Part shown: positions 14,687 to 19,508 of the stretch, piece after piece
Numbering within the stretch: position 1 is the first letter of the stretch
Layout of the letters: every line of letters begins with the position of its first letter
Notes under the pieces: generated by a model
Databases searched by the model: none
What the model was told of the DNA's origin: nothing
The model's input: only the letters and a program-made list of their open reading frames with translations
Assembly: GCF_000152625.1 (NCBI RefSeq)
Contig: NZ_CH724156.1
Location: 2,382,687-2,446,686, forward strand
Origin: Roseovarius nubinhibens ISM
GTDB lineage: Bacteria; Pseudomonadota; Alphaproteobacteria; Rhodobacterales; Rhodobacteraceae
DNA: 64,000 nucleotides
Direction: 5' to 3'
Position numbers and translations under genes: made by a program

Positions 14687-15301
14687 TTAGCGGCGGCGGT
14701 CCCGGCGCGACGACATGGGCTGGAACGCCACGCCGACATGGGCCTCGCAATAGGGTTTGCCCGCTTGCGACGGCAGGCCGCAGAACCAGAAATCATCGGT
14801 CGCGGGATCGCCCACGGGCCATTTGCAGGTCCGCGAGGTCAGCTCCATCAGCGTGAGCTTCTTGGCCTTCTTCTCGACTTCGCTGACCTTGGCCAGCGCC
14901 TTGGGGTCGATCTCATTGGCCGAAGGCTGCGGCGGCAGGGGCTGACCGGCCGGGATGATCGGCTTGATCCGGCTGCCGGGCACCGGGCTCGGCGCAGCCT
15001 CTGCGGCGGGCTCGGGCTTGGGCGCGGGCTCTTCCTTGGGCTGCGGCGCGGCGGCGGCGGCCTTCTTGGGCTTGGGCGCAGGTTTCGCAGCCGCCTTGGC
15101 GGGCTTGGGCTTGGCCTCGGTCGCCGCGCTCGCGCCGCCCGTGCCGCCACCGCCATTGCGGTTGGACAGGCCAAGGCGATGCACCTTGCCGATCACCGCG
15201 TTGCGGGTGACGCCGCCGAGTTCCTTGGCGATCTGGCTGGCCGATTGCCCTTCAGCCCACATTTTCTTGAGTATCTCGACGCGTTCGTCGTTCCAGGACA
15301 T
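14687..15301 (-). CDS. gcrA: GcrA cell-cycle regulator
   Basis: A 204-residue alphaproteobacterial transcription factor that works with sigma-70 and methylated GAnTC sites. The N-terminal domain SWNDERVEILKKMWAEGQSA and GVTRNAVIGKVHRLGLSNR (residues 2-50) is diagnostic. A long low-complexity Ala/Pro/Lys/Glu linker (about 55-130) leads to the C-terminal domain with CKWPVGDP, FCGL and PYCEAH. The frame extends upstream of MSWNDE, but this is the conserved start. It is divergent from the ABC-2 permease gene and upstream of the small-membrane/HlyD pair. Confidence 0.95.
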   Translation of the reverse strand: MSWNDERVEILKKMWAEGQSASQIAKELGGVTRNAVIGKVHRLGLSNRNGGGGTGGASAATEAKPKPAKAAAKPAPKPKKAAAAAPQPKEEPAPKPEPAAEAAPSPVPGSRIKPIIPAGQPLPPQPSANEIDPKALAKVSEVEKKAKKLTLMELTSRTCKWPVGDPATDDFWFCGLPSQAGKPYCEAHVGVAFQPMSSRRDRRR

Positions 15302-15433
15302 GGTAACTCCGTGCAAAAGGGGCGGGGCACATCCCCTGTGCATTGCCGCCCTGAAAAATCCGGTCAAGGGCCTATTCTAATCACTGGGGGCCAAGTTACA
15401 AGGCACGAGCAACGGAATCGGCACGAGGGCAGC

Positions 15434-16231
15434 ATGTATCAGCAAATGGGCGAAAGACGGTTCGGGGCGGTCAACTGGCTGGGGCTGGCGACATTGGCGC
15501 GGCGCGAGGTGCAGCGCTTTCTCGCGGTCTGGACGCAAACCATCCTTGCGCCGCTCGTGACCTCGGGGCTGTTCCTGCTGATTTTCACCATCGCCATCGG
15601 GCCTCGGCGCGGCGATGTGATGGGCGTGCCCTTTACCCATTTCATTGCCCCCGGCATCCTGATGATGGCGGTGATCCAGAACGCTTTTGCCAATACCTCC
15701 TCGTCGATTGTCATCTCGAAAGTGCAGGGCAATATCGTCGACACGCTGATGCCGCCGCTCAGCGCTGGAGAGCTGGTGCTGGGCTATCTCGCGGGGGCGG
15801 TGGCGCGCGGGGTGATCGTGGCGCTGGCGATTGCGCTGGGTCTGTGGCTGGTGCTCGGGCAGGCCCCGGCGCATCCGATCTGGGCGCTATGCTTTGTCGT
15901 GCTTGGCGCGGCATTCATCGGCGGTGTCGGCATCGTGGCGGGGATTTTTGCCAATAAATTCGACCAGATGGCGGCCATCACCAATTTCATCGTGACGCCC
16001 TTGGCGTTCCTGTCGGGCACGTTTTATTCGGTCGAGGCGCTGCCGCCGGTGCTGCGCGATATCACCCATGCCAACCCGATCTTCTACCTGATCGACGGCG
16101 CGCGGTTCGGGGTCATCGGCGTCTCGGACGCCTCACCGGTGTTGGCGCTCTCGGTGGCCTGCGGCTCCGTTCTCGGGATCATGGCGCTGGCCTGGCTGAT
16201 GTTCCGCCGGGGCTATCGGCTCAAGTCCTGA
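15434..16231 (+). CDS. ABC-2 type transporter permease
   Basis: A 265-residue inner-membrane protein with six hydrophobic segments and the ABC-2 signature region ending in NPIFYLIDGARFGVIG, as in NodJ/DrrB/YadH-type exporters. The start at 15434 has GAGGG upstream and fits the family; the frame is open far upstream but only antisense to gcrA. No ATP-binding subunit gene is next to it in this window, so its ATPase must be encoded elsewhere. Substrate unknown. Confidence 0.88.
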   Translation: MYQQMGERRFGAVNWLGLATLARREVQRFLAVWTQTILAPLVTSGLFLLIFTIAIGPRRGDVMGVPFTHFIAPGILMMAVIQNAFANTSSSIVISKVQGNIVDTLMPPLSAGELVLGYLAGAVARGVIVALAIALGLWLVLGQAPAHPIWALCFVVLGAAFIGGVGIVAGIFANKFDQMAAITNFIVTPLAFLSGTFYSVEALPPVLRDITHANPIFYLIDGARFGVIGVSDASPVLALSVACGSVLGIMALAWLMFRRGYRLKS

Positions 16232-17097
16232 GCCGGCCTTCGCGCCAGGCCAGAAGCCCCGCGCCGCAGAGGATCACCACCCCGCCAATGAGCGAGACCG
16301 CATCCGGCACAACGCCAAAGATCGCCAGATCGTAGAGCGCGGCAAAGGCCAGCGCCGCATAGAAGAAAGGCGCCACGAAACTGGCATCGGCGCGGGCCAT
16401 GGCATTGACGAAACAGGCCTGACCCGAAGCCATGAGCGCGCCGAGACCGGCCAGCGCCGCCCATTGCGCGGGCGTCGGTGTTTGCCAGACGGCGAGGGCT
16501 GCGAGCGTCGCGATGCACAGCCCGATCACATTGTTGAGCAAGAGAATCTGCATCATGCCTTCGCGGCCCGACAGGCGCTTGATCAAGATCAGCTCGGCCC
16601 CGAGGCAAAGCGCCGAGCCCAGCGCCAGCAGCGCCCCGAACTCGAGCGCGCCGCCCCCCGGGCGGGTCAGGATGAGCGCCCCGCAAAGCGCCACGGCAGC
16701 AGCAGTCCAACGCCACGGCCCGACCTTTTCGCCCAAGAGCGGCACCGCCAGCAGCATGGCGAAGACCGGGTTGAGAAAACTGATCGCGGTGGCATCCGAC
16801 AGCGGGATAAAGGCCGCGGCGGCGAACATAAAGCTCGCCCCGCCCCAGCCGAGGCTCGACCGGCCCAGATGCAACAAGAGCGCGGGCGGGGTGAAGCGGG
16901 GGCCAGCACCAAAGCCGCCCCTGAGAGCGCCATCAGGGCAAAGAAAACCGGCCCTGGCTGATCTGTAGCGCGTGGAGCGGCGGCCCGAGAACGCCGGTGC
17001 CCAGCGCCTTGGCGATCAGCGTGGTGGCGGCAATGAACCCAGCGGCACAGAGCGTGAGCAGGGCGACAAGGGCAGGGTTCTGGGGGCGCGAGGTCAT
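16221..17097 (-). pseudogene. EamA/DMT family transporter with two frameshifts
   Basis: The gene begins MTSRPQNPALVALLTLCAAG at 17097 and follows the EamA drug/metabolite transporter pattern, but the frame breaks twice. Near 16946 (an AAAGAAAA run on the plus strand) similarity moves to a second frame reading FFALMALSGAALVLAP, and near 16900 (a GGGGG run) it moves to a third frame, which continues as TPPALLLHLGRSSLGWGG through to the stop at 16221. Restoring one base at each run gives about 292 residues with ten membrane helices, a normal EamA length. Either the gene is decaying or the two homopolymer positions are sequencing errors; reads would decide. The 3' end overlaps the ABC permease end by 11 bp. 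Confidence 0.8.
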
Positions 17098-17193
17098 GGG
17101 CCATCGGTGACAGCCGCCCCTGACCCTCGCAAGAGACAAAACGGCGGGGAATGCATTTTTTGCTTCCCGAATGGCTGAGCGGACGCTAAACCC

Positions 17194-17247
17194 ATGGCCA
17201 TGATCAAACGACGCCTTCATATCCGACGCCGACGCCTGAGTGCGTGA
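17194..17247 (+). CDS. Arginine-rich leader peptide upstream of argD-argF (putative)
   Basis: A 17-residue ORF, MAMIKRRLHIRRRRLSA, lies 103 bp before argD. Six of the 17 residues are arginine, four in a row, using alternating CGA and CGC codons. A GC-rich hairpin followed by a U-tract lies 15 bp beyond its stop. This arrangement (short ORF rich in the regulated amino acid, then a terminator, then biosynthetic genes for that amino acid) is the layout of ribosome-mediated attenuation. The Shine-Dalgarno match is weak. The HIRR segment also recalls the ornithine-sensing arrest peptide SpeFL of gammaproteobacteria, though its second histidine is missing. Expression is unproven. Confidence 0.55.
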   Translation: MAMIKRRLHIRRRRLSA

Positions 17248-17262
17248 GCCCCGTTTGACCCC

Positions 17263-17284
17263 GGCGCGATTGCGCCTTTTCTTC
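17263..17284 (+). terminator. Attenuator-type hairpin in the argD leader
   Basis: The stem GGCGC/GCGCC (17263-17267 with 17272-17276) closes a GATT loop and is followed by TTTTCTTC. The segment TGCGT at 17241-17245, just before the stop of the leader ORF, could pair with GCGCG at 17264-17268 (two G-U pairs) as a weak antiterminator when a ribosome stalls on the arginine codons. This alternative fold is my inference. Confidence 0.5.
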
Positions 17285-17349
17285 CCCAGAGATTGACCTT
17301 TTCTTGACGCTGCGGCACTCAATGCCCTGTCTTTAGCGGAGTATATCCA

Positions 17350-18528
17350 ATGATCCCGTCCATTCTGCCGACCTATAACCGTGCGCCCCTCAGCTTTGTC
17401 AAAGGCGAGGGCAGCTGGCTCATCGAGGCGGATGGGCGACGTTTTCTCGATCTTGGCGCGGGGATCGCGGTGAACGCGCTGGGCCATGCCCACCCCAAGC
17501 TGGTGGCGGCGCTGACCGAACAGGCGGGCAAGCTGTGGCACACGTCGAACCTCTATCACATCCCGGCGCAACAGGCGCTGGCCGACAAGCTGGTGGAACA
17601 CAGCTTTGCCGATACGGTGTTCTTCACCAATTCGGGCACCGAGAGCTGTGAGCTCGCGGTCAAGATGGCGCGCAAATACTGGTACGAGAAAAACGCCCCC
17701 GAACGGGTTGAGATCATTGCCTTTCATGGCTCGTTCCATGGCCGGTCCTCGGCCGGGATCGCGGCCGCCGGGTCGGAAAAGATGACCAAGGGCTTTGGTC
17801 CGCTGTTGCCCGGGTTCAAACATCTCGATTGGGGCGATCTCGAGGGGCTCAAGGGCGCGATCGACAGCCGCACCGCCGCCGTGCTGCTCGAGCCGGTGCA
17901 GGGCGAGGGCGGCATTCGCCCGATGGCCGATCACGATCTGCGCGCGTTGCGCCAGATTTGCGACGAGGCGGGCATTTTGCTCATCTTTGACGAGGTGCAA
18001 TGCGGCATGGGCCGGACCGGGCGGCTCTTTGCCCATGAATGGGCCGGTGTCACGCCCGATATCATGATGGTGGCCAAGGGCATTGGCGGGGGCTTTCCGC
18101 TCGGGGCGGTGCTGGCCACCGAGGCGGCCGCAGTGGCCATGACGGCGGGCTCGCACGGGTCGACCTATGGCGGCAACCCGCTGGCCTGTGCCGTGGGCTG
18201 TGCGGTGATGGATGAGGTGACCGCGCCCGGATTTCTCGAAACGGTCAACACCCGGGCGAGCCAGCTTCAGCAAAAGCTTGGCGGGCTCGTCGAGGCCTAT
18301 CCGGAAGTTTTTGCAGAGCTGCGCGGCTCGGGGCTGATGCTCGGGCTGAAATGCGTGGCGCCGAACACCGATGTGCTGCAGGCCTGCTATGAGGCCGGGC
18401 TCATCACCGTGCCCGCAGGCGACAATGTGATCCGCCTCCTGCCGCCTCTGACGCTCAGCGAAGACGAGGTGACCGAGGCGGTGTCGCGGCTCGACCATGC
18501 GGCGCGTGCCATCAAGGACCGGCTCTAA
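17350..18528 (+). CDS. argD: Acetylornithine/succinyldiaminopimelate aminotransferase
   Basis: A 392-residue class III PLP aminotransferase of arginine synthesis, converting N-acetylglutamate semialdehyde to N-acetylornithine. Key elements are NSGTESCELAVKMARKY (about 97-113, PLP phosphate), FHGSFHGRSS (about 124-133), IFDEVQCGMGRTG near 215 and the PLP lysine in MVAKGIGGGFPLGA near 240. Full length for the family. argF follows 53 bp downstream in the same direction, giving two consecutive arginine genes. The leader ORF and hairpin upstream suggest control by arginine supply. Confidence 0.94.
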   Translation: MIPSILPTYNRAPLSFVKGEGSWLIEADGRRFLDLGAGIAVNALGHAHPKLVAALTEQAGKLWHTSNLYHIPAQQALADKLVEHSFADTVFFTNSGTESCELAVKMARKYWYEKNAPERVEIIAFHGSFHGRSSAGIAAAGSEKMTKGFGPLLPGFKHLDWGDLEGLKGAIDSRTAAVLLEPVQGEGGIRPMADHDLRALRQICDEAGILLIFDEVQCGMGRTGRLFAHEWAGVTPDIMMVAKGIGGGFPLGAVLATEAAAVAMTAGSHGSTYGGNPLACAVGCAVMDEVTAPGFLETVNTRASQLQQKLGGLVEAYPEVFAELRGSGLMLGLKCVAPNTDVLQACYEAGLITVPAGDNVIRLLPPLTLSEDEVTEAVSRLDHAARAIKDRL

Positions 18529-18581: not shown

Positions 18582-19508
18582 ATGCCCGATTTTCTCGATA
18601 TTCACAAAACCGACGCTGGCGCGCTGCGCGATATTCTCGATCAGGCGAGCCAGATGAAACAGGCCCGTCTGGGTCGCAAACGCGGCGCGCCCGACGATGA
18701 TCAGCCGCTGGCCAATCACATGGTCGCGCTGATCTTTGAAAAACCGTCGACGCGGACGCGGGTGAGCTTTGACGCGGGCGTGCGGCAGATGGGCGGGCAG
18801 ACCATGCTCTTGTCCGGGGCAGAGCTGCAGCTTGGCCATGGCGAGACCATCGCCGACACCGCCCGGGTGCTGAGCCGCTATGTCGATCTGATCATGATCC
18901 GGACCTTTGACGAATCCGTCCTGCTCGAGCTGGCGGAACATTCGCAAGTGCCGGTGATCAACGGCCTGACAGACCGCACACACCCCTGTCAGATCATGGC
19001 CGATATCCTCACCTATGAGGAACATCGCGGGCCGATCAAGGGCAAGAAGGTCGTCTGGTCGGGCGATGGCAACAATGTCTGTGCCTCCTTCCTCCATGCC
19101 GCCGGCAAGTTCGGGTTTGATTTCACCTATACCGGTCCGCAACAGCTTGATCCCGAAGAGGAATTCATCGGCGAGGCGCGGCGCGCGGGGGTTCAGGTTA
19201 CGATCGAACGCGACGCGGCCAAGGCCGTCGAGGGTGCCGATCTGGTGGTCACGGACACCTGGGTCAGCATGCATGACAGCCAATCCACCAAGGAGCGACG
19301 GCATAATCTCCTGCGGTCCTATCAGGTGAATGACGCGCTGATGAGCCATGCCAAGCCCGATGCGCTCTTCATGCATTGCCTGCCGGCCCATCGCGAAGAA
19401 GAGGTCACGAGCAAGGTCATGGACGGGCCGCAATCGGTGATCTGGGACGAGGCCGAGAACCGGCTGCACGCCCAGAAGGCCGTGATGCGCTGGTGCCTCG
19501 GGGTCTGA
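18582..19508 (+). CDS. argF: Ornithine carbamoyltransferase
   Basis: A 308-residue transcarbamylase that makes citrulline from ornithine and carbamoyl phosphate. The carbamoyl-phosphate motif STRTR is near residue 56, HPCQ near 134, the ornithine-binding DTWVSM near 227 and HCLP near 265. It forms an operon with argD. A hairpin GGCCTTG/CAAGGCC (19516-19541) follows the stop but lacks a U-tract. Confidence 0.97.

Follow-up and report, generated by a model that had tools for sequence, protein, structure and literature searches.

A conserved arginine-codon leader upstream of argD–argF in Rhodobacteraceae: a probable attenuator with a 5′-end helix and a predicted backup promoter

Why would a short reading frame rich in arginine codons stand directly in front of two genes of arginine biosynthesis? 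In the window, by which we mean the whole 64,000-nucleotide stretch of Roseovarius nubinhibens ISM analyzed here, a first-pass annotation had singled out an ORF at 17194–17247 and a GC hairpin followed by a T-rich tract, and had read this arrangement as ribosome-mediated attenuation of the downstream genes. The parts themselves are as described: the ORF has 17 codons, six of them for arginine and four of these adjacent (CGA CGC CGA CGC); the hairpin begins 15 bp past the leader stop and is followed by the T-rich tract; and the next genes are argD and argF, each scoring over the cut-offs of NCBIfam models (Table 1). An attenuator would be expected to have, ahead of its genes, a small ORF in which several codons for the end product of the pathway follow one another, and this gene pair has one. 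Here, we ask whether the arrangement is kept among relatives, and by which mechanism it might act.

Table 1. Features of the argD–argF leader region (positions in the window)
Feature	Position	Strand	Remarks
P1, predicted leader promoter	17163..17192	+	weak −35 CTTCCC (17163–17168), −10 TAAACC (17187–17192); predicted start ~17199–17200
Leader ORF	17200..17247	+	15 codons, MIKRRLHIRRRRLSA; predicted to be leaderless, no ribosome-binding site; start aligned with relatives
H1, 5′ arm	17202..17210	+	pairs with 17252–17260, one A–C mismatch in the window
Sensing codons CGA CGC CGA CGC (region 1)	17224..17235	+	codons 9–12 in the window; the same four in 122/194 leaders
Region 2	17241..17245	+	17242–17245 with arginine codons 17232–17235, or 17241–17245 with 17264–17268
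H1, 3′ arm, directly before the hairpin	17252..17260	+	duplex scans and covariation in alignment A2
Terminator-like hairpin GGCGC-GATT-GCGCC (3:4)	17263..17276	+	helix 3 in alignment A2
T-rich tail TTTTCTTC	17277..17284	+	six T in eight bases after the stem
P2, second predicted promoter	17293..17321	+	TTGACC (17293–17298), CACTCA (17316–17321); start predicted at ~17328
argD, acetylornithine transaminase	17350..18528	+	NF002325 617 bits, TIGR00707 466 bits, both above cut-off
argF, ornithine carbamoyltransferase	18582..19508	+	TIGR00658 370 bits, above cut-off

Materials and Methods

The window's own genome (3.68 Mb in four contigs) contains a single match for the queried stretch. We assembled 260 argD loci from 80 named contigs, the window's own place, same-genus and same-family genomes, and 120 stretches taken by place; the genus contributed 30 loci and 20 stretches out of 58 matching genomes and the family 30 loci and 100 stretches out of 240, and the sample leans to higher identity, the named contigs being the best 80 of at least 591. 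Leaving out one locus with a cut argD (L072) and five identical regions gave 254 distinct upstream regions; one cut was misplaced (L192), and it was scored as a leader miss. A region was counted as bearing the leader if it held an ATG-initiated ORF of 9–20 codons that ended 50–230 nt before argD and whose last nine residues included a run of at least three arginines.

Structural counts were made on A2, an alignment built from sequence alone; its 50 members, among them the window, were picked by hand from 85 references and may favor clear structures. The row of the window (L082) is six bases late in the energy-swap tests, the folding of 181 sequences, the RNAalifold run and the codon and tail counts, the other rows being fine; it is correct in A2 and in the ribosome folding of 111 sequences.

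Results

Conservation and Distribution

The strict leader rule was satisfied by 194 of the 254 distinct Rhodobacteraceae argD upstream regions, the window included; applied to their reverse complements it picked out 2 of 254, and applied to single-base shuffles, 8 of 2540. The first-pass annotation had proposed an alignment of at least 50 such regions as a check, and had held that its reading would fall if neither ORF nor hairpin was conserved in relatives; what the comparison finds is the arginine-codon ORF in that large majority and a hairpin that covaries. Judged by these counts, the leader-peptide element is genuine and widespread in Rhodobacteraceae. The downstream order is stable as well, argF lying less than 400 nt 3′ of argD in 118 of the 127 loci examined.

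Among the 60 regions that failed the rule, a short ORF carrying RR close to its end is present in 36; in 21 cases it is 9–12 residues long, and many of these are of the IRRA type (e.g., MTHATRIRRA). A short variant of the leader can be recognized among them, with 10–11 residues and two adjacent arginine codons near the end, often as IRRA, at the same place before argD (L008, L017, L029, L124, L125, L128, L129, L144, L150, L159, L166, L167, L236 and similar loci). No leader was seen in some argD upstream regions (L203, L226, L228–L230, L244, L250 and L260), three of which (L244, L250, L260) belong to the window's own genus; the TTGAC element discussed below is kept there. Outside the family, 27 argD loci from other families of the class (L267–L293, the highest in identity of 117 matching genomes) held no comparable leader, and TTGAC occurred less than 90 nt before argD in 4 of the 27. 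Arginine runs in three of these loci, an ATG ORF ending in RRRR 52 nt before argD (L272) and inner RRR in ATG ORFs (L270, L290), were taken for chance.

The element is tied to this place. A covariance model gave one significant match in the window's genome, at argD (E = 2.4e-9), and thus no significant sign of the leader at other genes; two weaker matches had E of 1.18 (L263, in coding-looking sequence) and 6.03. The model matched 44 of 150 family genomes, 43 of them once; 35 of the 45 matches fall just upstream of the listed argD place, one lies elsewhere (the second match of G114) and the remaining nine are in genomes for which no argD place was given. The model is less sensitive than the ORF rule, and a missing match means little. 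A known Rfam element was rejected as an explanation, the 4227 families of Rfam 15 giving no covariance-model match in the window at gathering score or in 17050–17400 at E up to 10.

Two neighbors of the locus may be recorded in passing. On the minus strand at 16221–17104, the gene adjoining the leader appears split over different frames (ORFs 16221–16877, 16667–17104 and the end of 16933–18498), by frameshifts or sequence errors; from its residues we guess it to be transporter-like. The minus strand at 14687–15367 holds an ORF of 226 aa with a long Ala/Pro-rich linker and the segment MSWNDERVEILKKMWAEGQSASQIAKELGG, which we take to be GcrA-like.

Leader Start and Codons

The frame proposed originally is correct but probably its start is not: the inner ATG at 17200, which gives the 15-codon ORF, aligns with the relatives, and the outer ATG at 17194 does not. 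In 184 of 194 cases, a TA suited to a −10 element precedes the leader ATG at a distance of 10–14 nt, against a background of 7.4% (186 of 194 at 10–15 nt), most commonly at positions −13 and −12 (166 of 194). Only 8 of 186 leaders have T as the sixth base of this hexamer, and a TTGAC-like −35 precedes only 57 of the 194; in alphaproteobacteria, most −10 elements are reported to lack the −7 T, and the commonest distance from −10 to start is six bases (PMC8407463). A plain sigma-70 consensus scan of 17050–17400, which demands that T, rare in alphaproteobacteria, found neither P1 nor P2. An SD-like 4-mer stands before 20 of 194 leaders, as against 190 of 194 argD starts. Together, the spacing of the −10 and the rarity of ribosome-binding sites suggest that the leader transcript is probably leaderless; with six bases from −10 to start, transcription would run from about 17199 and leave the outer ATG untranscribed, and the true leader start is probably 17200, in a transcript beginning at or next to the AUG. 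The region upstream of cysS in the same genome (L261, about 3000–2900, minus strand) holds a cysteine leader ORF, MTKSCIIICCITC, with TTGACC and CTATGG spaced for a start at its AUG, and this leader, too, looks leaderless.

Codon choice in the arginine runs is extreme. Pooled over the 194 leaders, the runs consist of 356 CGA, 357 CGC, 38 CGT, one CGG and one AGG (n = 753); CGA thus makes up 47% of run codons but 3.7% of the 972 arginine codons that 29 long ORFs of the window contain and, within the leaders, 18 of 195 arginine codons outside the runs. One tRNA-Arg with inosine reads CGA, CGC and CGU. The choice of CGA and CGC could serve the sensing of this tRNA, the pairing with region 2, or both. 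The first arginine codon of the run is codon 10–12 in 179 of 194 leaders (the misplaced row of the window is counted there; its true value is codon 9), and the residues adjoining the run vary freely.

A pentamer, CATAT (17218–17222 in the window), recurs in 87 of the 194 leaders, where shuffles lead one to expect 3.6, and lies at nt 16–17 in 65 of them. It is read in mainly two frames (HI 43, TY 40) and is thus conserved as nucleotides, not residues; it may have a role in pausing or pairing, or as an unstructured spacer.

RNA Helices

RNAalifold returned no structure on a MAFFT alignment of 91 sequences, and we therefore looked for helices with duplex scans of own against swapped partners and by eye, and then counted them on the fixed alignment A2. 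One strong long-range pairing emerged, joining the 5′ end of the transcript (AUGAUCAAACG) to the segment that immediately precedes the hairpin (CGUUUGAUC): −8.44 kcal/mol with its own partner and −6.31 kcal/mol with swapped ones (p = 1.5e-18), neither control pair being significant (p = 0.52 and 0.09). A positional duplex scan had its maximum at this helix, H1, in both length classes (t = −3.8 in the shorter class of 71 sequences with 12–15 codons). In A2, H1 (columns 3–10 × 69–76) is 90.6% paired, with changes on both sides in six of eight pairs, AU being replaced by GC or by CG, for example. The terminator-like hairpin is 91.7% paired, with both-side changes in four of five pairs, and the helix of the codons with region 2 (1:2) is weak, with 78.3% paired and a both-side change in one of four pairs. 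The 17 pairs of these three helices hold 57 cells changed on both sides, as against 15.5 in shuffles, none of 500 of which reached that number, and their pairing falls from 88% to at most 42% when the columns are slid by one to three.

The pairing on which an attenuator would turn is that of TGCGT in region 2 with the left arm and first loop base of the hairpin (17264–17268), as originally proposed. The corresponding antiterminator (2:3; A2 columns 47–51 × 82–86) is 89.7% paired in the 50 sequences, with 12 both-side-changed cells against 4.6 in shuffles. In 61 relatives outside A2, however, its coevolution was not significant, with 0.797 paired for own and 0.778 for swapped partners; 50 of 500 shuffles reached the own value, and a 2:4 control gave 0.728. 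The energy-swap tests likewise gave no coevolution for 2:3 or 1:2, though some entries of the positional scan are artifacts of pairs without a duplex. The helices 2:3 and 3:4, which would exclude each other, are both more than 89% paired in A2, but the relatives outside it add no significant coevolution of 2:3. Sequence comparison thus gives good support to H1 and to the hairpin, whereas the antiterminator, covarying weakly, is no more than plausible. This structural support is comparative throughout, a plain fold of the single window sequence being ordinary (z = −0.22).

Ribosome Position and Folding

Constrained folding of the window, in which the footprint of the ribosome was blocked, behaves as the stalling proposal would have it: the probability of the hairpin is 0.06 with the ribosome at the first arginine codon of the run, 0.12 at the second, 0.98 at the third and 1.0 at the stop. 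Across 111 sequences with the 5′ end blocked, the mean falls only from 0.89 at the stop to 0.67 with the ribosome stalled at the first arginine codon; shifts above 0.3 go in the expected direction in 26 of the 111 and in the opposite direction in one. With the 5′ end free, the drop vanishes in the same sequences, the mean being 0.85 for the stalled ribosome and 0.80 for one at the stop, and an earlier folding of 181 sequences showed none either (0.81 and 0.72). The absence of a drop with a free 5′ end is likely explained by H1, which excludes 2:3. By these models, the textbook switch agrees well with the window and only partly with the family.

Discussion

A Probable Attenuator with a 5′-End Helix

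We consider the region probably to be an arginine-responsive, ribosome-mediated leader-peptide attenuator of argDF, most likely one with an unusual 5′-end helix and a backup promoter. The ORF, its codons, H1, the hairpin and both promoter-like motifs are conserved, and from them we infer transcript starts, stalling, termination and an arginine response along the following lines. Transcription from P1 would begin with the AUG of the 15-codon ORF or directly beside it, and a ribosome would load on the naked 5′ end and translate toward the four arginine codons, which, being in the family nearly all CGA, CGC and CGU, would draw on the single inosine tRNA-Arg. With ample charged tRNA, the ribosome would reach the stop and cover region 2, the hairpin 3:4 would form and transcription would end; with charged tRNA scarce, the ribosome would stall on the arginine codons, region 2 would be open to the left arm of the hairpin and the polymerase would enter argD–argF. 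H1 would re-close the region of the start codon and, as it crosses 2:3, should favor the hairpin unless a ribosome sits on the 5′ end. P2 would supply arginine-independent basal transcription. Of the first-pass annotation's attenuation reading, the arginine ORF and the covarying hairpin hold up well, whereas the scarcity of U-tracts in relatives and the position of P2 past the hairpin sit less easily with it.

The place of H1 allows a more specific scheme, which we would put forward only tentatively, as doubtful: a one-round leaderless switch with a clamp on its 5′ end, in which a queue of two ribosomes, rather than one stalled ribosome, is read. H1 would seal the AUG region once the segment before the hairpin has been made; if one ribosome stalled on the arginine codons while a second waited at the AUG, H1 could not close and the antiterminator could form, whereas after a fast ribosome H1 would close and force termination. 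The distance from the AUG to the run, 27–33 nt in the leaders with the run at codon 10–12, is about that of one ribosome. To our knowledge, the trp and his attenuators have not been described as depending on such a queue.

Termination

The hairpin and its tail are the sole terminator-like site found in 17050–17400, and the U-tract of an intrinsic terminator is present in the window; most relatives lack it, only 30 of 165 having at least four T in the eight bases after the hairpin. Instead, the tails are C-rich and G-poor, with 44–59% C and 4–10% G at positions 3–9 (counted from 0) past the hairpin. Intrinsic termination may be inefficient, or Rho may be involved. An alternative that we find rather unlikely but worth keeping in sight takes the latter course: the ribosome, stalled or terminating, would decide the loading of Rho on the C-rich, G-poor stretch between hairpin and P2, with the hairpin stabilizing the ended RNA or setting its 3′ end. 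The composition of the tails and the weak U-tracts speak for it, and there is a precedent in Salmonella, where translation of orf34, an upstream ORF with arginine codons, is reported to interfere with Rho-dependent termination before speF (PMC6386406). Against it, compensatory change keeps the hairpin, the tail in the window is properly T-rich, and the stretch from the leader stop to argD is mostly only ~100–140 nt.

A Predicted Second Promoter

Spacing like that of P1 is conserved, yet the route to argDF probably does not run through the attenuator alone. A TTGAC 40–80 nt before argD is found in 189 of the 194 regions with a strict leader and in 51 of the 60 without, as against 8 of 254 reverse complements, and the element persists where the leader is lost, including within the window's genus. 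In five regions lacking the leader (L228, L229, L244, L250, L260), a frame that resembles the 3′ part of the gene upstream terminates directly ahead of it. In 188 of 240 sequences, the second base of the second hexamer is A, and the GGCAC conserved at the −10 place is a poor match to the −10 consensus. An RNA hairpin at this place instead of a promoter was rejected, the best pairing reaching only 57% in 224 sequences. It had been stated beforehand that transcription of argD from downstream of 17284 would speak against attenuation; with P2 conserved even in regions lacking the leader, such transcription is probable in part. P2 would then transcribe argDF bypassing the attenuator, and the leader cassette would be an added layer of control, not the sole route.

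The same conservation, with and without a leader, would suit a scheme in which P2 mainly drives argDF and the product of P1 is a trans-acting small RNA, a peptide or both, with the hairpin as its 3′ end. H1 and the hairpin would make a closed, stable RNA, and rnTrpL, which begins with the trpL AUG, is reported to act in trans (PMC7298713). We consider this improbable all the same: the leader is tied to argD, as the 35 of 45 model matches just upstream of it indicate, its arginine codons suit the downstream pathway, and the residues beside the run are free to vary.

Peptide or Codons

Could the nascent peptide itself stall the ribosome, through the positive charge of RRRR in the tunnel or as an ornithine sensor like SpeFL, independently of tRNA charging? 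The four adjacent arginines invite the idea, and the window has HIRR, as in the SpeFL core HIRRT*HIMM (PMC6386406), a resemblance to which the original proposal had drawn attention. HIRR occurs in only 5 of 254, however, and looks accidental; the window peptide has no HIM and the gene is argD. With peptide conservation missing, we rejected a SpeFL-like ornithine arrest, and the free variation beside the run, the conservation of CATAT as nucleotides and the extreme synonymous choice make peptide-driven stalling of any kind very unlikely. That a chance ORF merely lies beside a chance hairpin, regulating nothing, could appeal to the ordinary single-window fold and to the genomes that do without a leader, but it is practically negligible, the conservation counts refuting it already and the covariation and promoter spacing adding to this.

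The favored reading, an attenuator sensing arginine through codons, fits the regulators of these genomes. ArgR (PF01316) had no match in the window's own genome or in any of the 150 family genomes, which include it, while 9 of 14 control genomes matched; according to a regulon survey, gammaproteobacteria conserve ArgR and other classes lack it (PMC5343134). With no ArgR found in the 150 Rhodobacteraceae genomes searched, the element would be an arginine sensor that reads the charging of tRNA-Arg. It would also be a bacterial arginine-codon leader on genes of arginine biosynthesis, the arginine leaders that we found acting elsewhere (speF, rbf). Among the matches listed in a search of open-licence literature by title and start of abstract, there was no arginine leader at argD or in Rhodobacterales; an earlier prediction in subscription journals or older surveys is possible. 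With its covarying 5′-end helix and probable leaderless start, the leader would be well suited to studying attenuation in which no ribosome-binding site takes part, and the presence of two promoter-like elements poses the concrete question of how basal and starvation-induced supply are split; the element is directly testable in many cultivable bacteria.

Relation to Known Systems

Two known leaders sense arginine. In Staphylococcus aureus, arginine codons in the rbfL leader ORF are reported to sense arginine limitation through tRNA charging; the codons there are AGA and AGG, the leader acts on the initiation of rbf translation, and starvation lowers expression (PMC13009471). In Salmonella orf34/SpeFL (PF10940), consecutive arginine codons of an upstream ORF likewise sense arginine and alter the fold of the downstream RNA, but that ORF has 34 codons and a conserved core, precedes an ornithine decarboxylase gene in gammaproteobacteria, and works with Rho and RNase G (PMC6386406).

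The nearest system in the papers listed is uORFC-8-2, the cysS leader of Rhodobacterales and thus of the same bacterial order, with a short ORF of tandem cognate codons, a codon stem and a terminator stem; it, too, is a candidate that genome comparison brought to light (PMC8632094). As noted above, its copy upstream of cysS in the window's genome looks leaderless as well. It differs in its cysteine codons, in its tRNA-synthetase gene and in a U run at the 3′ end in all cases reported, and the account of it on which we draw has no 5′-end helix, unlike H1 here (PMC8632094). With arginine codons and argD in place of cysteine codons and cysS, the present leader does not belong to that family.

A further comparison is with trpL/rnTrpL of Sinorhizobium meliloti, an alphaproteobacterial leader peptide of 14 residues, transcribed from its AUG in front of a biosynthetic gene and operating without transcriptional repression (PMC7298713). 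That system senses tryptophan and has been shown experimentally, and the parts of its description used here mention no second promoter past the terminator (PMC7298713). Its leader RNA is known to begin directly with the AUG (PMC7298713), and both the promoter spacing and the rarity of SD sequences point to a probable start of the same type in the argD leader.
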